Positions 25,698 through 34,778 of a stretch of 64,000 nucleotides of DNA are shown here, piece by piece. Within the stretch, counting starts at the first letter, position 1. Each line of letters starts with the position of its first letter. The notes under the pieces were generated by a model. That model saw only the letters and a list, made by a program, of their open reading frames with translations, was not told the DNA's origin and ran no database searches. The DNA is from Armatimonadota bacterium (GTDB lineage Bacteria; Armatimonadota; Chthonomonadetes; Chthonomonadales; Chthonomonadaceae): positions 1 to 64,000 of the forward strand of contig JAGWMJ010000013.1 in assembly GCA_028871815.1 (NCBI GenBank), written 5' to 3'. The position numbers and the translations under genes were made by a program.

Positions 25698-26720
25698 GTG
25701 GCATGCGAAGCCAAGGGAGCGCCCGGCGGTAGGGGACCGTTCACCCGATCACCTGGCTGGTGCACCGCATTCACTTCGATAGGTGTGATGTTGTGCTGTT
25801 CCGCAGGCTGCCGGGCCCCGCAGGGCCCTCGCGCGGTCGCGACTCTCGTCTTCCCGGATGACCAACCTCTGAACGCCGTGGCGCTCGCGTTTTCGCCCGA
25901 CGGGAGCCGCCTTGCCGCGATGGGCAAGCGGGGTCTGTACGTCTGGAATACAGATTCTTGGGCCGCACCGGATAACTTCTCCGTACCGCGCGCGGCCCGG
26001 ACGATCGGGTACCTGCTCAACTGCGTAACCTTTCGGGGGGACCAACGCGTCTTGACTTTCGGCTCTGCGGGAGCAATAATAGACCTGAATGACGGGGCGG
26101 CCGACGTTGCGCCATCGAGCCCTCCGAGCGGCGTAGAATTGGAATCTCTGTCGCCCGACGGTAGGCTGGCCTTTTGTCGCGTGCAAGCCGGCCACTGCGC
26201 GGTTTACACGGTGCTCGGCTGGCGCCGGCTGGCCGATTTAATGAGCACGTCCGGCCGGACCGCCAGGTGCTTCGGTGTCTTCTCGCCCGATTCCCGGACT
26301 CTGGCTGTCGGTTGCCTTCACGGACCCACCGCTGTATACCGGGTCGCGCCGTGGCGCCGGATCGAGATGAATCGTCGCGCCTCGTTGACTCCGTTATCGG
26401 TGTCGCCTGACAGCCGCCTAATTGCTGGGATCGACCATCAACGCATCGTGGTCTATGACGTTGCCACCGGCAAGCGCGCCGCCGGCTCCGCCCGGCTGCC
26501 CGTGCTATACAACTGGCTCGTCACGCCCGGATTCGCCCGTGGCAGCCGGTATTTGATCGTCCCCGGACGCGATCACGGCATCCAATTCTGGTCAACCCGG
26601 ACTTGGCGCGTGCGGTTCACGGTTGAAACGACCCATCCCATTGAGTATGTCGCGTATTCTCCTGCGACCAACACATTCGCCGCGATCTGTGACGGCGGTG
26701 TCCGCGTGTGGGCTCTCTGA
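25698..26720 (+). CDS. WD40-like beta-propeller lipoprotein (cassette partner)
   Basis: A 340-residue protein. GTG 25698 has GAGGT 8 bases upstream and gives a lipoprotein-like signal ending in a SAGC lipobox (GVMLCCSAGC). Repeats follow with the blade pattern ALAFSPDGSRLAAMGKRGLYVWN, SLSPDGRLAFCR, VFSPDSRTLAVGC, SVSPDSRLIAGID and YSPATNTFAAICDGGVRVW. This is a WD40/YVTN-type propeller, likely anchored outside the cytoplasmic membrane. Immediately downstream an RHS core copy begins. By analogy with the three later cassettes it is the partner of an RHS C terminus that has been lost upstream. Confidence 0.8.
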   Translation: MACEAKGAPGGRGPFTRSPGWCTAFTSIGVMLCCSAGCRAPQGPRAVATLVFPDDQPLNAVALAFSPDGSRLAAMGKRGLYVWNTDSWAAPDNFSVPRAARTIGYLLNCVTFRGDQRVLTFGSAGAIIDLNDGAADVAPSSPPSGVELESLSPDGRLAFCRVQAGHCAVYTVLGWRRLADLMSTSGRTARCFGVFSPDSRTLAVGCLHGPTAVYRVAPWRRIEMNRRASLTPLSVSPDSRLIAGIDHQRIVVYDVATGKRAAGSARLPVLYNWLVTPGFARGSRYLIVPGRDHGIQFWSTRTWRVRFTVETTHPIEYVAYSPATNTFAAICDGGVRVWAL

Positions 26721-26749
26721 CGTGAGCTCGCCCCGGCACAGACTTCCGC

Positions 26750-26929
26750 CTCGCCGGAACTACAACCGATACCTGCAGCTACAAGGCGTTTGGCGTCGAG
26801 CTGCAAGGCGGCTCCGGAACCGTGAACCCGTACCGGTATGAGGGGCTTTTCGGCTACTACCGCGATGCGGCAGACTGGATGTATGTGAGGGCACGGTGGC
26901 TGGATGGGATGAATGGGAGGTGAGCGGGT
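26750..26929 (+). pseudogene. RHS core copy (type 2) with nonsense codon
   Basis: In frame it reads TDTCSYKAFGVELQGGSGTV, NPYRYEGLFGYYRDAADWMY, VRARWLDGMNGR and then TGA (26921-26923), where the copy at 28686-30269 has TGG. It starts 30 bases after the stop of the propeller gene. The same frame continues into the metzincin-type domain at 26930-27529. The core therefore now serves as a relic 5' flank of that domain. Confidence 0.85.
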
Positions 26930-27529
26930 GTGGATCCGATGTGGCAGGATGAGGCAAGGTATGTGTATGTCCGTTGCGGCCCCGCACTGCTCGCCGACGC
27001 TAGCGGCGAGCAGTGCCCGGGCCGCGTCGTGGATTGCCCATCTGATTGTTCCGTGCAAAACGCGCTGAAATCGGCCTGCCACTGCACGCACAAGCTCAGC
27101 CGTTCCGATGTCGCTTACATTAATAGTTGTTTATGGAACGGAGGGCCGCACCATCAATGGCCAGGTCAATGTCCGGCGATCACGCCCGCACAATTAGCAT
27201 GTATGAAAGCGGCATGCGATTGCGTGACCATAGTCTGTTGCGGCGCGTGCAATGTAGACGGGCCTCCGGATCCGGCATGCGCCAATTGCGCCACGGATCC
27301 TAACTTTATCCATTGCGCCTTTACCCTCGGTAATTCCGGCCAATGCGGGCGTATCTACCGGTGCTACCCGGACATAGCGGCGAATCCCACTCGGTGCCGG
27401 AATCTTCCTATCCCGGGAATCGGCGGCGTGATTCTCCACGAGCTCGGCCACCACTGCGGATACAACCACGACGATGGCTGCAATAACCTGCTGGCACAAT
27501 GCTTGGGGCGTGCATGCCGTGGGAGGTGA
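26930..27529 (+). CDS. RHS C-terminal domain, Cys-rich, metzincin-like zinc protease signature
   Basis: A 199-residue ORF beginning (GTG) just after a nonsense codon in the RHS core. Residues 1-14 are still RHS core (DPMWQDEARYVYV). The rest is a Cys-rich domain with many CxC and CC pairs, ending with HELGHHCGYNHD (about 175-186). This fits HExxHxxGxxHD, the extended zinc-binding signature of metzincin proteases. The cysteines suggest an oxidising, extracytoplasmic setting. In RHS systems such tips are toxins. The following gene, whose ribosome site overlaps this stop, is a candidate immunity or processing partner. Activity is inferred from the motif only; without its RHS core the piece is an orphan. 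Confidence 0.72.
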   Translation: MDPMWQDEARYVYVRCGPALLADASGEQCPGRVVDCPSDCSVQNALKSACHCTHKLSRSDVAYINSCLWNGGPHHQWPGQCPAITPAQLACMKAACDCVTIVCCGACNVDGPPDPACANCATDPNFIHCAFTLGNSGQCGRIYRCYPDIAANPTRCRNLPIPGIGGVILHELGHHCGYNHDDGCNNLLAQCLGRACRGR

Positions 27530-27536
27530 TCGTGCG

Positions 27537-28640
27537 GTGTCGACGCTTCGCGTATCCCGGGCTGTGTGTGCGGCGACAGTCGCGCTGTGTCTCGCATGCG
27601 GCCGTGGCCCGACAAGGACTTTCAGAGCGGGCGCCCTCGCACCCGCCCGTCAACTCCGGAGCGTTTTCCGCTTCCGAGCCTCTGACACCGGCCCAGACCT
27701 CACCTGGCTTTCGTCCGATCAATTTATCTACGACACCTACGGGTCCGGACTGATGCTCGTGGATTCGCTCAACGGGCACTCCCGCGTCTTTCTCGGCGAA
27801 CGGGGCCTTGGAGCCCGCGACGTGGAGGCGACTCACTTCGGCGCGTACCCGCTTGAGCTTACCGGTGCGGCGCACGGGGCCAGGACCGCTATTCTCTGCG
27901 TGGTCGCCTCGCCGAACAGTCCAAGAGAGACCGTTCTGGTCATCTCAGCTTCCGGTCGCGTTTTAGGTCGCCGTTCGCGTCAAGGCGGTATGTTCGCCTA
28001 CCCGGCCGGTTCGCGCTGGCTTGGATTCGAGGCTGACCCGCCTACCGACTCGGTCACACACCGCCGTGCCTACATCGCGGACAGTCGTTGTCGTGTAACA
28101 CCTATTCGCAGCAGTTTGTCCGTACGGGGTGAATGGGCGCTGCAGCCCGAACCAAACGCTCCGCCGAAAGGTGTCCGCCTTGCCGAGATTACAGCGGGTT
28201 GGCGCTTCCGGACCGCCACGGTATCGCCGCTGATGCTGGCCGACGGTGTCCTGCTTCGTCGCGGAGCCAGCTGGTCCGCCCATCTGCCGACGGGATACGG
28301 CGGGCTTTTAGACGCCATTAGCCCCGACGGGCGCACGCTTGCAATCCTCGCGCAGCGGAAGTTCCCGAGGGCGGCGGGCAGCACGCCACGGCCCGAGGAG
28401 GGCCCGCCTACTGAGTTGACTCTGTGGCTGGCGCAGGCCGCTTCGCCTGCAGCGGTCATGGTCGGCGGACTCCGCTGTGCTGTGGGTTACGCTGGTTTCC
28501 CGCGGCCGTTCTTTAACCCGGGCAACTTGGAGTGGCTGCCGGATGGCTCTGCCGTGACGTTCACTGCACAGCGACAACTGTGGGAGTACCGGCTCGGCGT
28601 GAACGACGCCCCGCACCGGGCCGATGTCAGCCCGAAATGA
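27537..28640 (+). CDS. Exported beta-propeller-like protein (cassette partner)
   Basis: A 367-residue protein. GTG 27537 is preferred because GGGAGGTGA, which includes the previous stop, lies 7 bases upstream. The N terminus is a signal peptide (VSRAVCAATVALCLACG) with a Cys that could be lipidated, though the lipobox is imperfect. The body has propeller-type segments such as TWLSSDQFIYDTYGSGLMLVD, LDAISPDGRTLAILAQ and LEWLPDGSAVTFTAQRQLWEY, spaced like TolB/WD40 blades. Overlap of its ribosome site with the metzincin ORF stop indicates translational coupling. It may be an immunity protein acting at the envelope. Confidence 0.75.
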   Translation: MSTLRVSRAVCAATVALCLACGRGPTRTFRAGALAPARQLRSVFRFRASDTGPDLTWLSSDQFIYDTYGSGLMLVDSLNGHSRVFLGERGLGARDVEATHFGAYPLELTGAAHGARTAILCVVASPNSPRETVLVISASGRVLGRRSRQGGMFAYPAGSRWLGFEADPPTDSVTHRRAYIADSRCRVTPIRSSLSVRGEWALQPEPNAPPKGVRLAEITAGWRFRTATVSPLMLADGVLLRRGASWSAHLPTGYGGLLDAISPDGRTLAILAQRKFPRAAGSTPRPEEGPPTELTLWLAQAASPAAVMVGGLRCAVGYAGFPRPFFNPGNLEWLPDGSAVTFTAQRQLWEYRLGVNDAPHRADVSPK

Positions 28641-28685
28641 CGCTTAAACCTGGCATCCGGCCGGGGAGAGATCCGCGGTCACGCG

Positions 28686-30269
28686 GTGCCGAGCCGTGTG
28701 GGCAAGCGCACCGCCCGCGTCCCAGCAAACCTGTTTGTCATTGCCGCCCCCTCCCGCCAATCGCGGGGCGGACCCTTACACGCCATGACGATTAACCACA
28801 CCTGGGACACCGACGGCCGCGAGACGGTTCTTAAAAACCTGAACAGTTCCGGCATGGCGCTGGCGGTCTGCAGCCGCACCCACAATCACGTGGGCAACCC
28901 GCTCTCCGTGCTCGAGCTGGATGGCGCTCGTCACGCCGGCGGCGGTCCGCTACGGCAACGCCTCAGCAATCATCCCACAAAGGCAAAGAGCCCTGAAGGC
29001 GGCATACCTGGCGCATCCCGCGCGCTTCGTCAAACGGCCGCCGCAGCATACCGTTCTCCCGGAAGCCGTCTGGATCAATCCACCGGAGCCCAATACGCAG
29101 AAGGTACTCGACATCACTTCATGACCGCAAACCTACAACAATGTGTCTCAAACATGTTGACAAGCCCCGGCAACCGCCTCGTTGAAAACGACTCCGGCGC
29201 GCTTACGTCGGCGTCCTACGACGTCTCGGACCAGCAAATCCTCGTCATATCCCCAACCGGAACCACCACGAACACCTGGGATGCCAACGGCAACCTTTTG
29301 GTCGCCAACGTGGCAGGCGCGTTGACCACCAACACGTGGGACGGCGAAAACCGGCTTGTGGTGCGGCAGAACCCCACCGGACCGCCAACAACAAACCTCT
29401 ACTCCGCGGACGGTTTACGGCAGATTACGCAAACCGGCAGCGGGTACACACGCTTCCTCTGGGACGACCAGAATGTGCTCATCGGGCAGGACGCCGGCGG
29501 TGTGATGCAGGCGCAGTACACCAACAACCCGGGTATCTGGGGCGGTCTCGCTTCGCGGCGGCGCAGCGGCGTGTCCAGCTTCTTCGGCCCGGACCAGCAG
29601 GGCTCCGCGCGCATCCTGGTATCGCAGGCAGGCATGATAACCGATAGCTACAGCTACAAGGCATTCGGAGTAGAACTCGAATCCGGTTCGGGCACGGTGA
29701 ACCCGTACCGGTATGAAGGCCTGTTTGGCTACTACCGCGATGCGGCAGACTGGATGTATGTGCGGGCACGGTGGCTGGATGCTGCGAGCGGGAGGTGGGT
29801 GGGCGTGGATCCAATGTGGCCGGATGAAGCGCGGTATGTGTATGTCGGGAATTCGCCAGGCGCCCACTCGGATCCAAGCGGTGAGTTCGTTCAGCTTTGT
29901 TACCGCCCGGTTTCCGACATTATCCCAGGCAATTGCCGCGGCGGATGTTATTCACACCGGTTTCTGGTAACCTCGTGCAGCACGTTCGGCTGGGGCACAA
30001 AGGGCATCATGTGGGGGCTCCCTGCAAACCTGGGTGGCTACCCACTCGGCGAGATGGTCTGCTGTCCGGTCTCGGTGACGGCTAGGCAGGAGCGATGTAT
30101 GTGTCAGAACGCCAATAGCGCCGATAAGGGTTACAAGATGTGCGGCCGGACATGGGGGGCGGCGGTTACGGGCCGTTTGCCACTAACTGCCAGACCTTCG
30201 TCAGCTGCATTCTATAGGAAGTGCACCGGCCGACAGAATGGCAACACATGTGGTACGCAGATTCAGTAG
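28686..30269 (+). CDS. Truncated RHS protein with Cys-rich NlpC/P60- or LRAT-like C terminus
   Basis: A 527-residue frame. Residues 38-60 (HTWDTDGRETVLKNL) and 165-330 are RHS/YD repeats (GTTTNTWDANGNLLVAN, WDGENRLVVRQNP). The core follows (FFGPDQQGSARIL, YRYEGLFGYYRDAADWMYVR, VGVDPMWPDEARYVYVGN). About 100 residues in between (60-160) look frame-shifted and non-homologous. The variable tip from residue ~390 is Cys-rich with GCYSHRFLV. In another frame after a G6 run (30154-30159) it reads ATNCQTFVSCIL and stops at 30217, the Cys motif of NlpC/P60 or LRAT-like peptidases. One extra G would restore it. The start codon is uncertain and the 5' end is probably lost. Confidence 0.75.
   Translation: MPSRVGKRTARVPANLFVIAAPSRQSRGGPLHAMTINHTWDTDGRETVLKNLNSSGMALAVCSRTHNHVGNPLSVLELDGARHAGGGPLRQRLSNHPTKAKSPEGGIPGASRALRQTAAAAYRSPGSRLDQSTGAQYAEGTRHHFMTANLQQCVSNMLTSPGNRLVENDSGALTSASYDVSDQQILVISPTGTTTNTWDANGNLLVANVAGALTTNTWDGENRLVVRQNPTGPPTTNLYSADGLRQITQTGSGYTRFLWDDQNVLIGQDAGGVMQAQYTNNPGIWGGLASRRRSGVSSFFGPDQQGSARILVSQAGMITDSYSYKAFGVELESGSGTVNPYRYEGLFGYYRDAADWMYVRARWLDAASGRWVGVDPMWPDEARYVYVGNSPGAHSDPSGEFVQLCYRPVSDIIPGNCRGGCYSHRFLVTSCSTFGWGTKGIMWGLPANLGGYPLGEMVCCPVSVTARQERCMCQNANSADKGYKMCGRTWGAAVTGRLPLTARPSSAAFYRKCTGRQNGNTCGTQIQ
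30154..30159 (+). repeat. G6 homopolymer at a frameshift in the RHS tip
   Basis: Six G bases inside the variable domain. Adding one G joins the upstream frame (KGYKMCGRTW) to GGYGPFATNCQTFV and a stop at 30215-30217, three bases before a GTG of the next ORF. It could be a phase-variable tract, a decay mutation or a sequencing error. Confidence 0.6.
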
Positions 30270-31384
30270 CATCGGCGGTGGTTAAGGCTGCCCTGCGGCG
30301 CGGTTGGTTGGCCGTGCTCATGGGCCTGAGCGTCTGGGCGAGCCGATGCGCGTCTTCTCAGTACCAGCACACTCGCCGCGCGGCGCGAGCGACGGCGCCT
30401 GGTGCCCCTTCCCAAATGCGATTCGCGCTAACAGCGCGGGTGCCCGCCCCGCTTAGCGAACTGTGGGCCTTTGGCCGTCATGGCCGGCTGGCCTTGGTGG
30501 AGGCCTACAAGAAGGGCGGCGGCCGCGTGCCGCACACGTACACGGTGCGGATCCTGCAACCCGCAGACGCGCGCACGTTGAGGATCGTAGCGGCCGGGCC
30601 CGTGACGGGAGTGCTTTATAAGCTCTTCTGGTCGGACGACGGCCGCCGTTTCCTCCTATCGACGGACCACCAGACGTTCGAATGCGATGCGACGAGCGGG
30701 AGGGTTGTGGCGCGCCATCCGTGGACTATGATCGCGGAGGATCCCCGTGCACGGGTTTGCATAACCGGGGTAGCCGCGACTTACAACAGCACGGTCACAC
30801 TCCGCCGCCTTGCGCCGCCGTGGACTGCTATAGCGACGGTCCGCGTCCCCCGCCATTGCGAGGCGCAGGTCGGGATGCCGCTGGAGTGCGCGTTTGCGCC
30901 CCGGGGCGAGCGGTTGGCGGTTGCTGGAGCCGGCGCCTGCGAGCTTATCCTGCTTGTGAACTGGCGCGTCGCACAGCGCCGGTTGCTGGGTGCTCGCGAT
31001 ACCGAGGTGGTCGACACGCCGTGCGAATTCGCCCCTTCGGGTCGCGTCCTCGTGATATACGACCTGACTGGCGCCAAATTCTGTGCGTACGATTGTGCTA
31101 CTGGCAAGTTGCTGGTACGCGTGCCGTCGCGCCGCAACTCGGTGGTGTCCGGATGCTTCACGCGCGACGGGCGCTTCTTCATTGGCATGTCGGACAACGA
31201 CAACTCTATTACTGCTTGGCGGGTCGCCACGTGGCGCGTCTGCGCGGTGATGCGCCTTAAGCAGGTTATGCCTACATTGGTCGGCGCCTACGGCGTGGGG
31301 ACTGGACTCGTGATTGGCACATTCGCGCGGGACACGCTTCTTGCCGAACTCCAAAGCAGCTCTCCCGCGGCTCCGGCACGGTGA
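30248..31384 (+). CDS. Exported WD40-like beta-propeller protein (cassette partner)
   Basis: About 378 residues. Possible starts are GTG 30221, ATG 30248 and GTG 30278; the last gives the neatest signal peptide (KAALRRGWLAVLMGLSVWASRCAS). The body has repeated propeller blades: LWAFGRHGRLALVEAY, FWSDDGRRFLLSTDHQTFECD, CAFAPRGERLAVAGAG, EFAPSGRVLVIYDLTGAKFCAYD and CFTRDGRFFIGMSDNDNSITAW. The 3' end coincides with the next RHS core: its stop TGA is read from the GTGAACCC of the core. It is predicted to be extracytoplasmic and paired with the NlpC-like tip upstream. Confidence 0.76.
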   Translation: MWYADSVASAVVKAALRRGWLAVLMGLSVWASRCASSQYQHTRRAARATAPGAPSQMRFALTARVPAPLSELWAFGRHGRLALVEAYKKGGGRVPHTYTVRILQPADARTLRIVAAGPVTGVLYKLFWSDDGRRFLLSTDHQTFECDATSGRVVARHPWTMIAEDPRARVCITGVAATYNSTVTLRRLAPPWTAIATVRVPRHCEAQVGMPLECAFAPRGERLAVAGAGACELILLVNWRVAQRRLLGARDTEVVDTPCEFAPSGRVLVIYDLTGAKFCAYDCATGKLLVRVPSRRNSVVSGCFTRDGRFFIGMSDNDNSITAWRVATWRVCAVMRLKQVMPTLVGAYGVGTGLVIGTFARDTLLAELQSSSPAAPAR

Positions 31385-32040
31385 ACCCCTACGGCTATGA
31401 AGGCCTGTTCGGGTATTACCGCGATGCGGCAGACTGGATGTACGTGAGGGCACGGTGGCTGGATGCGGTGAGCGGGATGTGGGTGGGGGTGGGTCCGATG
31501 TGGCCGGATGAGGCAAGGTACGTCTATGTGGGGAACGGACCGGCACGTGCGACGGATCCGAGTGGGCGGCAGGCGGACCCATTCATTCCGGTCATGCCGT
31601 TGCAAACCTGTTATCCGCCCAAGCCGAACTGCAACAAGTACCACTGGCGACCGGGGCCATATCCGCACTACCCGCGCGACAAAGTGCATTGCAGCGCGTA
31701 TTTACCACCGTGCGAACGCCGGACATACTACGCGTGCAACGCATACCGGGCTTGTATGAGCGCCGGCTGGCCGAATGACCGTCCCGGTTCTGAGTGCGTT
31801 CGCGGCTGTCTACGGGTGTGCCTGCCGCCAAAGAACATACCGAACGCCGATTGCAGCCAGGTGTGGTGCGTCCACCAACACTGTTTTGCTGCCTGCCACT
31901 GGTACCCGGATTGGTCGGTCACATGGCCCATATTCGACGAGATTTGCTGCGGGCCCGTAGTTAACGATCCGCCTGCCGGCAAGGGGTACCCGACCGGCTC
32001 GTGTCCGCACCCGTGTTGCCAGCGGCCCAAGGAAGCCTGA
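31381..32040 (+). CDS. RHS core copy with Cys-rich C-terminal domain, unknown
   Basis: A 219-residue ORF. Residues 1-60 are RHS core (NPYGYEGLFGYYRDAADWMY, VRARWLDAVSGMWVGVGPMW, PDEARYVYVGN). The homology begins about 15 bases before the GTG, inside the end of the previous gene. From residue 65 the sequence is a unique domain with about 20 cysteines, for example CERRTYYACNAYRACMSAGW and CSQVWCVHQHCFAACHW, plus Pro/Tyr-rich stretches. No catalytic motif was recognised. Cys richness suggests a disulfide-bonded secreted domain. The stop overlaps the ATG of the PQQ-propeller gene (TGATG). Confidence 0.72.
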   Translation: MNPYGYEGLFGYYRDAADWMYVRARWLDAVSGMWVGVGPMWPDEARYVYVGNGPARATDPSGRQADPFIPVMPLQTCYPPKPNCNKYHWRPGPYPHYPRDKVHCSAYLPPCERRTYYACNAYRACMSAGWPNDRPGSECVRGCLRVCLPPKNIPNADCSQVWCVHQHCFAACHWYPDWSVTWPIFDEICCGPVVNDPPAGKGYPTGSCPHPCCQRPKEA

Positions 32041-33245
32041 TGCTGATCGTACGCCGCCGAGCTGGGCTGACGAGGATGCTTGGCTTGTTGGCGCTGGCGC
32101 CGCCGGCTGCTGTCTACCTTATGATACCGTCCAGCAGGATCAATAGCCACAACAGCCATACTAATCAGCGTAGGAGTGACGCCGCCTGGCCTATGTTTCG
32201 CGGCAATGCACAACGCAGCGGCTTATCGAATTGCCCACGCCTCGCCGGGAAAGTAGCGTGGCGGGCAAAGCTAGACGCGCCGGTAACCGGTTCGCCCGCG
32301 GTTACGACGTCCGGCATAGTGCTCTGCACCACCTCAGAAGGCGGCTTGGTTGCCATATCGGCGCGCGATGGGACGCGGCTCTGGGTGCGGCACATCGGCG
32401 GCGATGGCTACTCATCGCCAGCCGCGGTGGGCGGCCGCGTCTACGTGGGTGGCGGCGCGCAGCTTTGGTGCCTGTCCGCGGCGTCTGGCCGCGTGCGCTG
32501 GAGGTTTCGGTCCAATGGCTCGATAGAGACCTCGCCGGCGCTCGTTCCCGGCAAGGTGGTGTTCTTTGGTTCGGACGGCGGGTATGTGTATGCGGTCGGC
32601 GCGATTACCGGGCGCATGATCTGGAAACGGCGTCTCCGTGGCCGGCTGTCGAGCTCCCCGGCACTGGACACCGACGGCCAGGTGTTCATCGGCCGCGCAG
32701 ATGGCAGCCTGGTCATCCTTACTGCCGACGATGGCGCTATAGTCGCCTCTTTGCCGCTGATGCCCACTTTCTGGGCGTCCGAGGGCATCTTTTCGACGCC
32801 CGCCGTGTGCGGGAGGAACGTTGTGGTCGGAACGTTCGGCGGCGATGTCATCGCGGTTTCTCGAATCCGGCACGCCGTCGCTTGGCGCACTCACCTTGAT
32901 GCACGCCTCGATCGCTCACCGATTGCGGCCTCATGCGCCGTAGACGGCCATGGGCACGTACTGGTCGGGTCCGCCGACCACCGGATATATAGTCTCAATT
33001 CGAACACAGGGGCCGTGATATGGCGCTTCGACGCGGGCAGCGCAATCGCATCCTCGGCGGCCGTGAGCCGGCGTGGTTACCTGGCCGTTGGGACCGACGG
33101 CGGCAATGTATTGTGCCTGGCCACCGAGAACGGCGGATCGCTCTGGTCCCTGCGCACTGGGGGCAGGGTATACTCGTCACCGGCGCTATCCGGCGGCGAG
33201 GCGTTTGTTGGCTCCGAGGACGGGTACCTTTATTGCTTGAAGTAA
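32040..33245 (+). CDS. Membrane-anchored PQQ-like beta-propeller protein (cassette partner)
   Basis: A 401-residue protein. ATG 32040 shares its A with the preceding TGA stop (TGATG) and has AAGGA 7 bases upstream. The N terminus is a signal anchor (RRAGLTRMLGLLALAPPAAVYLM). Blades of the PQQ_2/outer-membrane BamB-like type follow: WPMFRGNAQRSGL, SGRVRWRFRSNGSIETSPAL, VYAVGAITGRMIWKRRL, SSPALDTDGQVFIGRADGSL, IYSLNSNTGAVIWRFDAGS and GGEAFVGSEDGYLYCLK. It has seven to eight repeats and is predicted extracytoplasmic. It differs in family from the WD40-like partners although it sits in the same cassette slot. Confidence 0.85.
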   Translation: MLIVRRRAGLTRMLGLLALAPPAAVYLMIPSSRINSHNSHTNQRRSDAAWPMFRGNAQRSGLSNCPRLAGKVAWRAKLDAPVTGSPAVTTSGIVLCTTSEGGLVAISARDGTRLWVRHIGGDGYSSPAAVGGRVYVGGGAQLWCLSAASGRVRWRFRSNGSIETSPALVPGKVVFFGSDGGYVYAVGAITGRMIWKRRLRGRLSSSPALDTDGQVFIGRADGSLVILTADDGAIVASLPLMPTFWASEGIFSTPAVCGRNVVVGTFGGDVIAVSRIRHAVAWRTHLDARLDRSPIAASCAVDGHGHVLVGSADHRIYSLNSNTGAVIWRFDAGSAIASSAAVSRRGYLAVGTDGGNVLCLATENGGSLWSLRTGGRVYSSPALSGGEAFVGSEDGYLYCLK

Positions 33246-33367
33246 CAGTCCACGGCTCGCTGCCGCACCTCCTCTGCCGGTCCGGCGTCCGCCGAACGTG
33301 GCGAGCGGCTATATCGCGTGGCTGTCTCACCGTACAAACGGTCCTCTTCGGCGGCTGCGCAGCACTC

Positions 33368-33475
33368 CGGCGCAGCGGCGTCTCCTGCTTCTTCGGCCCG
33401 GACCAGCAGGGCTCTGCGCGCATCCTGGCCTCCAGCGCCGGGTCGGTAACCGATATTTACAGCTACAAGGCGTTG
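33368..33475 (+). pseudogene. RHS core fragment, frame-shifted from downstream core
   Basis: Reads RRSGVSCFFGPDQQGSARIL and ASSAGSVTDIYSYKAL in the frame ending at 33502. Compared with the copy at 29555-29680, seven bases are missing around 33470-33476, so this part is out of frame with the RYEGLFGYYRD part that follows. It shows decay of the core while the tip stays open. Confidence 0.75.
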
Positions 33476-33498
33476 AGCTGCAAGGCGGAGGCGGAACC

Positions 33499-34149
33499 GT
33501 GAACCCTTACCGGTATGAAGGCCTGTTCGGCTACTACCGCGATGCCACGGACTGGATGTACGTGCGGGCAAGGTGGCTGGATGCGATGAATGGGAGGTGG
33601 GTGGAGCGCGGAAGGCCCGCTGGAAACTGGATTGACGCCGTCGGTAACTACGGCGCGGCCGTCGCTGGCAGGATGGCCGAACCGAGCAGTGCTCGCAGAT
33701 CGACGGCCTGCCATGGCGTGTTGGGTTGTGATGCGACAGGCCCCACCTGCAAGAAGCGGCGAATGGCGAATCCGACAGCGTGTGAGCGCGCCGCGTGCGC
33801 ATGCTGGAATAGGTTCAACAACGAACTCGCCAATAGTGCATCTGAGGCGTGCGGCGGTACCTCGGCCGGCTTAGGCGCTATCCGGCAGTGCCATACGACG
33901 CAATCGTGTCTTGGAAACAGCGGACACGACTGCATGATAAATCCGCCGCCGTCGAGCGCGTGCCACCGAGGCGATACCGGCGGCCTGGCTCCGCGCCGGT
34001 GCCGGGTCCGCCGTGAACAGTGTGTCTGTATGTATTACGAGCAACCGGGTAAGGCGCGTACCGCCAGGTGGCTTGCGCACACAATGTACAACGGCGCACA
34101 CAATGTGCCCGCCCCGCCGGGCCCGGGAGCTGGCCACCCATGTCCTTAG
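33499..34149 (+). CDS. RHS core copy with Cys-rich C-terminal domain, unknown
   Basis: A 216-residue ORF from GTG 33499, with GGAGG at 33487-33491, 7 bases upstream; the raw frame is open to 33298. It starts with core (NPYRYEGLFGYYRDATDWMY, VRARWLDAMNGRWV). Then it leaves the shared sequence earlier than the other copies, at ERGRPAGNWIDAVGNYG. The tip holds about 16 cysteines (TACHGVLGCDATGPTCKK, CERAACACWNRFNNELA, CLGNSGHDCM, EQCVCMYYEQPG). No motif for a known toxin was recognised. It ends inside the start of the next gene, so the pair is translationally overlapped. Confidence 0.7.
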   Translation: MNPYRYEGLFGYYRDATDWMYVRARWLDAMNGRWVERGRPAGNWIDAVGNYGAAVAGRMAEPSSARRSTACHGVLGCDATGPTCKKRRMANPTACERAACACWNRFNNELANSASEACGGTSAGLGAIRQCHTTQSCLGNSGHDCMINPPPSSACHRGDTGGLAPRRCRVRREQCVCMYYEQPGKARTARWLAHTMYNGAHNVPAPPGPGAGHPCP

Positions 34150-34778
34150 GCTTACCGCCGGAGTCCGGCAACAGGGCCGCCGGCCCGGTAGCTGCCAGCC
34201 GGCAGCGCCCAACGGGTCGAACGGGCGGAGCCGGCCTCACGGGAGCCACACGCTGGACCAGCATTGCAGGCGGGGCTGCGGTCTGGTCCGTGGCAGTCGT
34301 CCTCCTCTGCCTCACCGGCTCCGTCGTGTTGCGCCAGGCGCGTGAGAAAGCAGACTCAATCGCCTGCGCGGGTAACCTGCGCGCGTTAGGGGCCGCACTC
34401 GCGCTCTACTCGCAGGATTGGGACGACCGCCTGCCGCCAAGTACTTCGTGGGCGTCCGTCATCGACGACGGCAAATACCTGCCCGGAAGGCAGCGTCGAA
34501 GGCGGTTTCACTGCCCGGCCGCTAAATCGAGTTTCGGCTACGCGATGAACATCGGTGTCAGCGGTGCAGACTCCTACCAGATTCCGGTACCAAACGTGAT
34601 GGTGCAGCTTTTTGAGACGGACTCCGCCGCGTGGAACGCATCGGGTGTGGCATCGCAGGTTGCGCGCTCGCGGCACTCGAACCTGAACGTGCTCTACTGC
34701 GATGGCTCCGTGCATGCTGTGAACCTCTACACCCGAAGACGCTGGCGGTGGTTCCTCTCCAAAGCTGGATCGCGTTGA
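34140..34778 (+). CDS. Pseudopilin/DUF1559-like membrane protein (cassette partner)
   Basis: A 212-residue protein whose ATG 34140 overlaps the previous stop by 10 bases; GGGAG lies upstream. It has a single membrane segment near residues 45-65 (AAVWSVAVVLLCLTGSVVL). Next come REKADSIACAGNLRALGAAL and ALYSQDWDDRLPPS, the region after the helix in DUF1559/type II pseudopilins. The C terminus RHSNLNVLYCDGSVHAV matches the H-x-DG signature of that group. No prepilin peptidase site is evident. A related protein is at 60128-60928. It occupies the partner slot after a Cys-rich RHS tip. Confidence 0.78.
   Translation: MSLGLPPESGNRAAGPVAASRQRPTGRTGGAGLTGATRWTSIAGGAAVWSVAVVLLCLTGSVVLRQAREKADSIACAGNLRALGAALALYSQDWDDRLPPSTSWASVIDDGKYLPGRQRRRRFHCPAAKSSFGYAMNIGVSGADSYQIPVPNVMVQLFETDSAAWNASGVASQVARSRHSNLNVLYCDGSVHAVNLYTRRRWRWFLSKAGSR

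Follow-up and report, generated by a model that had tools for sequence, protein, structure and literature searches.

Rhs C-terminal displacement arrays have been described for Enterobacteriaceae, where core repeats of varying length lead into dissimilar tips (Jackson et al. 2009, PMC2935791). According to the excerpts of this paper and of the other papers cited below, on which our comparisons are based, the downstream fragments mostly lack start codons, some are degenerating, and each array contains one core clade. In this study, we analyzed a locus of similar anatomy in an Armatimonadota bacterium of the family Chthonomonadaceae (GenBank assembly GCA_028871815.1). It is located at positions 25,698–34,778 of a stretch of 64,000 nucleotides (nt), namely positions 1 to 64,000 of the forward strand of contig JAGWMJ010000013.1, which as a whole is referred to as the window. 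Four copies of one RHS core end lead there into four unrelated cysteine (Cys)-rich tips, and directly behind each tip an exported or anchored protein is encoded. This locus probably represents a row of displaced Rhs polymorphic-toxin cassettes, with tips acting on the cell envelope and exported immunity proteins for which beta-propellers provide one scaffold.

In the excerpts of a survey of polymorphic toxins, no beta-propeller domains were found among the immunity proteins, and one immunity family (Imm65) carried a signal peptide and a lipobox (Zhang et al. 2012, PMC3482391). Propeller-like inhibitors are known from other systems: Tsi1 of the Tse1/Tsi1 pair (2012, PMC3391265) was reported to be a fragmented propeller closest to DPP IV propellers, and X-Tfi of the X-Tfe/X-Tfi pair (XAC2609/2610, PMC10933484) and PliI-Ah are said to have a propeller-like topology in common, in X-Tfi together with a lipoprotein box. 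Each of the three blocks peptidoglycan hydrolases at sites beyond the cytoplasm (PMC3391265, PMC3533786, PMC10933484). A preliminary description of the window had taken known immunity proteins to be small and cytoplasmic and the array to be unlike known Rhs loci; neither point is supported, since Tsi1 and X-Tfi are exported and propeller-like and displaced-tip arrays have been described (PMC2935791). Bacterial teneurin-like proteins (PMC13018210) are RHS/YD shells whose polymorphic C-termini are toxic and whose genes are followed by an immunity gene; some of the shells are exported via Sec, and one of their tips was harmful only with an added secretion signal; the excerpted passages do not mention displaced-tip arrays. 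In the openly licensed literature, a search combining WD40, immunity protein, and Rhs gave no match, and searches for Rhs in Armatimonadetes and for polymorphic toxins in Armatimonadota returned one paper on the wheat rhizosphere and one survey of another superfamily, respectively.

Array organization and RHS core classes

A direct-repeat search of the region from 15 to 45 kb revealed a repeat family of 219 nt whose four copies lie at 26753, 29628, 31312, and 33430, the latter three with 82, 69, and 63% identity to the first. A second repeat of 130 nt with two copies (29536 and 33345) corresponds to a more upstream portion of the same RHS core. In translation, the RHS-associated core end (NPYRYEGLFGYYRDAADWMYVRARWLD...) runs into the four unrelated Cys-rich tips, which agrees with the preliminary description, as does the gene for an exported or anchored protein found directly 3' of each tip (p1–p4, starting at 27537, 30278, 32040, and 34140). 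All four of these proteins display a hydrophobic N-terminal segment, weakest in p2. The NCBIfam model Rhs_assc_core (TIGR03696) scored over its cut-off in unit 2 only (1.3e-10) and under it in unit 1 (3.1e-6), unit 3 (1.8e-5), and unit 4 (0.056); the core repeat, and thus an RHS-associated core ahead of a variable tip, is present in all four units. The core fragments belong to one clade, differ in length, lead into dissimilar tips, and include degenerating copies, as in displacement arrays. The features, all on the + strand, are as follows:

25698..26720, +: p0, exported WD40-type propeller, probable lipoprotein, a partner without a tip (Pfam)
26753..27010, +: RHS core copy 1 (219-nt repeat and translation), in-frame TGA at 26921-26923
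27011..27529, +: tip 1, Cys-rich, zincin-type metallopeptidase motif HELGHHCGYNHD (aligned relatives)
27537..28640, +: p1, exported probable lipoprotein, PD40-like, all-beta; GTG start (Pfam PD40 0.0026, under cut-off)
28770..29885, +: RHS core copy 2 with part of a YD-repeat region, a truncated carrier (Rhs_assc_core 1.3e-10, over cut-off)
29886..30269, +: tip 2, Cys-rich, permuted papain/LRAT/PPPDE-like by resemblance
30278..31384, +: p2, exported WD40-type propeller; GTG start (Pfam propeller 7e-4, under cut-off)
31381..31566, +: short RHS core copy 3 with a possible GTG start, the repeat itself extending upstream to 31312 (Rhs_assc_core 1.8e-5, under cut-off)
31567..32040, +: tip 3, Cys-rich, 18 Cys in 157 amino acids (aa) (translation)
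32040..33245, +: p3, anchored PQQ/BamB-like propeller; ATG start (Pfam PQQ_2 8.3e-41, over cut-off)
33335..33603, +: RHS core copy 4 (repeats and translation), frame-shifted upstream, RHS likeness ending after GRWV
33604..34149, +: tip 4, Cys-rich, weakly related to tips in genomes G025 and G020
34140..34778, +: p4, membrane-anchored, pseudopilin-like, DUF1559/H-X9-DG; ATG start

The start codon of core copy 2 is uncertain, its open reading frame (ORF) being listed from 28686. Overlaps of the coupled-gene type were detected between the stop of p2 and the possible start of core copy 3 (GTGA, 31381-31384) and between the stop of tip 3 and the start of p3 (TGATG). All four tip ORFs (127–181 codons, tip 2 with an inner frame break) and all five partner ORFs (p0–p4, 212–401 codons) are open. 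Promoter- and terminator-like sites in the window did not exceed the level of shuffled sequence, and PADLOC gave no match for nine window proteins.

The genome of the window (3.68 Mb, 22 contigs) revealed at least 46 core ends with TIGR03696 at E<=0.01, 40 of them over the cut-off; window unit 4 is not among them because it is too short. The TIGR03696 search gave matches in two of 14 control genomes. None of the 46 core ends lies on an ORF above 542 aa, and this genome yielded neither an intact rhs gene heading the array nor a full-length, exportable carrier with YD repeats, either of which contig ends could hide. The core ends fall mainly into three core classes (a, b, and c), with two tips fitting no class. 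The four units of the array belong to class a, and their tips are all Cys-rich, one with a transmembrane (TM)-like stretch; at a fifth class-a end (C2:364180), the core is interrupted by a stop and a tip is lacking. Counterparts of the sequence preceding core 2 were all short or distant elsewhere in the genome, and no other long class-a stretch was found. Altogether, the array is real, lies well above chance, and is part of a large pattern.

In class b, TM-like segments were present in 12 of 20 tips and at least one such segment in 19 of 20 partners, and in class c in none of nine tips, with five of eight partners lacking any. The tips of classes a, b, and c thus differ by compartment, being Cys-rich, hydrophobic, and soluble, respectively. 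The core shared by the 20 class-b units ranged in graded fashion from 251 to 2126 nt (3 kb were searched upstream, and some units are cut by contig ends), as displacement predicts. On three own-genome stretches (L034, L039, and L046), class b displayed tandem short tips, often hydrophobic and often followed by a small membrane protein, an arrangement that suggests membrane-acting toxins with membrane immunity. One class-c tip (L042:6736-7419) resembles by eye effectors of the L,D-transpeptidase type (Tlde1/DUF2778-like). Two class-c core remnants also occur in the window itself (142-1900), with an in-frame stop interrupting the core of the second; a HEAT-like protein there (830-1630, by eye) is nearly duplicated next to a class-c unit of contig C16 (L045).

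Searching a set of 121 genomes of relatives, own genome included, with the class-a core (E<=1e-6) revealed a class-a-related core in 49 of them, again including our own. Chthonomonas-like relatives carry this core with Cys-rich tips; among RHS relatives in other phyla, some tips are Cys-rich (e.g., Pirellulaceae L223 and Goldiibacteriota L235) and many Cys-poor. From 80 stretches of relatives, 16 of our own genome, and the window, 196 core units were collected, 161 of which had a tip of at least 50 aa and a stop inside the stretch, 153 of these with a candidate partner. The median Cys content of tips was 7.9% in the relatives (n=126), whose stretches were picked by likeness to the class-a core, vs 0.9% for 31 other-class tips of this genome. 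In 13 ORFs, the core is preceded by 600 aa or more, and four of these display a signal-peptide-like start by eye (L156, L158, L186, and L193). A full-length carrier with YD repeats and such a start is present in relative L158 (1284 aa, ten RHS_repeat stretches, 8.8e-65).

Exported partners, tips, and their joint inheritance

For the partners as a class, we used 99 units with at least six tip Cys and a partner of at least 90 aa, selected from 117 units of the relatives and the window (18 with fewer Cys were left out), and 34 genes from the same window as controls. An N-terminal signal or anchor, called by a crude hydrophobicity rule, was found in 66 of the 99 partners vs one of the 34 controls, and any membrane or export sign in 78/99 vs 9/34. 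In 56 of the 99, an in-frame start lies within -8 to +11 nt of the tip stop. Together with the hydrolase-type tips and the close-range co-occurrence described below, these counts bear out for the class the earlier impression that both tips and partners look extracytoplasmic.

Among the 25 of 73 Pfam families listed for the partners, which overlap within the same proteins, were ankyrin (10 partners), PD40 (8), THOC3-type propeller (7), WD40 (5), DPPIV_N (4), and TPR (2). No ankyrin or propeller family matched more than one of the 34 control genes, where one propeller, a DPPIV_N match beside a peptidase-S9 match, was present among the 25 of 59 families listed. Of the 95 partners from relatives, 30 that were long or specifically chosen were inspected one by one, together with L087:3187. 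A propeller signal (E<0.01) was detected in 11, from eight genera (G001, G004, G006, G017, G020, G033, G036, and G056), and six of these, in six genera, scored over a curated cut-off. Pfam gave no match for 11 of the 30, and hhalign comparisons of single propeller partners mostly gave no convincing relation. The earlier emphasis on propellers as the main partners is not supported: the partners also include ankyrin, TPR, and multi-TM proteins as well as exported proteins of unknown type.

Concerning the window partners, the propeller gene that had been noticed ahead of the array is well founded: p0 matched the THOC3-type propeller (2.5e-13) and WD40 (1.6e-6, over cut-off), and its N-terminus carries a lipobox-like SAGC, read by eye. 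Likewise, p3 is a propeller over the cut-off and also matched NCBIfam BamB (3.8e-46, under the equivalog cut-off). The types proposed for the others found weaker support, all under cut-off: propellers for p1 and p2 and a pseudopilin-like protein for p4 (Pfam DUF1559 7.6e-4, NCBIfam H-X9-DG 0.0034). As to p2, it is related to the partner of another Cys-rich RHS tip (L097; phmmer 6.1e-6, hhalign 1.5e-4), which itself is a WD40 protein over the cut-off (Pfam 4.2e-25).

Pairing of tips and partners was analyzed by binning tips according to their phmmer E value between genomes and counting partners as related at E<1e-3; the pairs so obtained are not independent. Tips related at E<1e-30 in different genomes had related partners in 6 of 11 cases, four of the six across genera, vs 43/10,628 for unrelated tips (Fisher 3.2e-12). 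With pairs within and between genomes pooled, the counts were 11/18 for this bin, 1/18 for tips at 1e-30 to 1e-10, 2/31 at 1e-10 to 1e-3, and 48/11,556 for unrelated tips. Closely related tips thus do share partners, whereas among distant tips the pairing is largely gone, the latter being expected if immunity genes change quickly.

Pfam analysis of the 99 tips revealed DPBB_1 in three, SLT and DUF6973 in two each, and NAGPA, Matrixin, DUF3238, and one helix-turn-helix match in one each, all weak except DUF6973. Outside this sample, genome G036 harbored two RHS cores with polysaccharide-deacetylase tips (L096 and L176; 4.3e-15 and 1.9e-12), both followed by PQQ-propeller partners (6.7e-11 and 3.1e-10). 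HExxH was present in 10 of the 161 tips, including window tip 1 and a tip of G006 with a WD40-type partner (L185, 1.3e-11). Tips with an SLT motif in G001 and G004 (3.5e-35 to each other) have exported WD40-type partners in both genomes. Judged by such sequence features, some tips are of a peptidoglycan- or protein-degrading type, and a propeller partner beside a peptidoglycan hydrolase is suggested in relatives (SLT motif with WD40, deacetylase with PQQ), not for the window tips. As a separate candidate, the tip family of L083, L088, L193, and L086 had been read by eye as DPBB lytic transglycosylases; it was rejected, Pfam giving no support in the three scanned.

Tips 1–4 of the window consist of 172, 127, 157, and 181 aa with 23, 11, 18, and 15 Cys, respectively (about 8.6–13.4%). 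Tip 1 displays the motif HExxHxxGxxH (HELGHHCGYNH), and the pattern is kept in the aligned tips of G013, G067, and G006; the G013 relative gave a Matrixin match under the cut-off (0.0097), and the G006 relative is linked weakly, via the G013 tip (1.8e-3). An AlphaFold model of tip 1 (with one relative) had a mean predicted local distance difference test (pLDDT) score of 52.6, and a PDB structure search with it gave no match at E<=0.001 among five, the best being the zinc peptidase AsaP1 (E 2.1). A PDB sequence search with tip 1 returned nothing, and one with a tip-2 relative only chance-level matches. Relatives of tip 2 end in H-(N/S)-C-Q-x-F, with (N/S)CQxF in frame in all five aligned relatives, and the relative in G103 matched Peptidase_C97 (PPPDE) under the cut-off (0.013). 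Tip 2 itself looks broken because its NCQTF segment (30185-30199) is out of frame with the tip sequence on either side, which may reflect decay or a local assembly error. For tip 3, no convincing relative was found, the three other matches lying at E 0.001-0.01, one of them with internal stops. Tip 4 is weakly related by phmmer to tips of L161 (5.8e-7) and L102 (4.5e-5).

Several observations weigh against reading the locus as an array of toxin–immunity cassettes, the most serious being that the four window pairs were not themselves seen conserved. The expectation that the same tip occurs with the same partner across genomes holds for the class at close range and is not borne out for the window pairs, because the relatives of three tips (1, 2, and 4) lack a relative of the window partner. 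The window partner type is kept for none of these three tips, whose relatives carry ankyrin, multi-TM, other, or no recognized partners instead. The relatives of tip 1 (G013, G067, and G006) have an ankyrin protein, a secreted-looking protein of 179 aa, and again an ankyrin protein, and no propeller. Those of tip 2 have multi-TM partners by eye (G103, G033, G017, and G019) or are followed by a next long ORF that looks like an unrelated metabolic gene (G071). Between genomes, related partners were found in 0/14 pairs at tip E values of 1e-30 to 1e-10 and in 1/28 at 1e-10 to 1e-3. Five of the 11 close cross-genome pairs also lacked a partner match: the partners of L085 and L087 are both WD40-type, those of L083 and L088 align weakly (hhalign E 1e-4), and the other three concern tip-2 relatives with multi-TM partners in two genomes and none in place in the third. 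Partners were defined as the longest downstream ORF, and some of these calls are wrong. The single-sequence structure model of p1 is mostly strands and uninformative as to the fold (mean pLDDT 34.9), and p1 has no close relative, a search of 161 genomes giving only two other matches (E 0.003). As to the G001 tip, its assignment to SLT is by motif and was not found by Pfam. Among the 13 long carriers, a signal-like start is absent from four (three in G107 and one in G015), and another five are cut or internal.

Proposed mechanism and alternative explanations

According to the cassette-array interpretation, each unit would comprise an RHS core fragment, a C-terminal toxin tip, and an immunity gene. 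New core–tip–immunity modules would enter via core recombination and push older ones downstream, where the displaced cores would decay and the tip and partner ORFs persist. A Sec-exported RHS shell would take the tip outside, and the tip, freed at or in a neighboring cell, would attack envelope polymers or proteins, its cysteines presumably forming disulfides outside the cytoplasm. Tip 1 would act as a metallopeptidase-like and tip 2, now broken, as a papain/LRAT-like toxin. The exported partner would meet the toxin where it acts and protect the envelope of the producer, with propellers (WD40, PD40, and PQQ) serving as scaffolds beside ankyrin, TPR, multi-TM, and other exported proteins. Immunity genes of old cassettes could still protect against kin using the old tip. 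As no intact carrier was found in this genome, the array probably represents a reserve of orphan tips and of immunity genes that remain useful.

A more far-reaching version can be put forward only tentatively: these loci may represent an Armatimonadota Rhs class for extracytoplasmic warfare, in which the core class is an address label (a for the envelope, b for the membrane, c for the inside), WD40/PD40/PQQ propellers are a re-used immunity scaffold, and the genome keeps an immunity bank after losing every intact carrier. If so, this would be a propeller immunity family at a scale undescribed in the cited papers. The link between core class and tip compartment also constitutes a testable claim on how Rhs proteins choose their target compartment.

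Of the alternatives, we consider it unlikely that the exported proteins encoded downstream are lipoproteins, propellers, and pseudopilins of an ordinary kind, whose genes adjoin the tips by chance or were carried along, the true immunity genes having been lost or the tips not being toxins. Such an origin would fit p3 and p4, which resemble widespread families (BamB-like and DUF1559), as well as p2, for which 42 of 161 genomes (own included) gave WD40-like matches, many of them within long ORFs that look unrelated, and also the window pairs not seen conserved. Against it stand the starts at or near the tip stop in 56/99 partners, the export-type N-termini (66/99 vs 1/34 controls), the co-inheritance of tips and partners at close range, and the ankyrin and PD40 families in 10 and 8 of the 99 partners, no such family occurring in more than one of the 34 controls.

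A comparably low probability is assigned to a dead graveyard in which all units are functionless pseudogenes. The stop in core 1, the broken core 4 and tip 2, and the lack of any ORF above 542 aa among the 46 core ends point in this direction, but five partner and four tip ORFs have stayed open, and the starts of core 3 and p3 still overlap the stops of p2 and tip 3.

The preliminary description had also raised the diversification of a surface adhesin or protease. In such a system, silent tips would be moved onto an expressed RHS stalk to vary a surface structure, and the propellers would be secreted ligands. Signal-peptide-like carriers in some relatives, Cys-rich tips, and degenerate copies sharing a core would suit this idea; yet the nameable tips are hydrolase-like rather than adhesive, close tip–partner pairs are inherited together, and no long stalk was found in this genome, so that we do not favor it and regard it as very improbable. 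Chance repeats as the source of the array were considered and rejected.

Comparison with known systems

With the displaced-cassette array proposed for the window, the known range of Rhs toxin arrays comes to include a little-studied phylum, and their form there looks tuned to work outside the cytoplasm, with Cys-rich tips, exported partners, and, in some relatives, signal-peptide-like carriers. With the enterobacterial displacement arrays, as excerpted (PMC2935791), it shares the anatomy of core repeats and dissimilar tips; unlike in those, no intact rhs gene was found at its head or in the genome, its tips are Cys-rich, and its partners are exported. Common to the polymorphic toxin systems of the excerpted survey (PMC3482391) and the window class are the RHS stalk, a variable tip, a linked immunity gene, and tips of peptidase or peptidoglycan-acting type.

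Like Tsi1, X-Tfi, and PliI-Ah in the passages cited (PMC3391265, PMC3533786, PMC10933484), the propeller partners found here are exported and propeller-like, a comparison by type. The Tsi1 and X-Tfi systems involve partial propellers and effectors of type VI or type IV secretion systems, whereas here mostly WD40/PD40/PQQ-type proteins of about 300–510 aa stand beside RHS tips. The many natural tip–propeller pairs bear on whether full beta-propellers serve as immunity proteins. The teneurin-like proteins (PMC13018210), as described in the excerpts, have a teneurin-type superfold and an NHL propeller in the carrier itself, and their likeness to the window class is by description only. Altogether, the class of mechanism is already known, and Cys-rich tips with exported, often propeller-type partners look like an apparently new variant of it.

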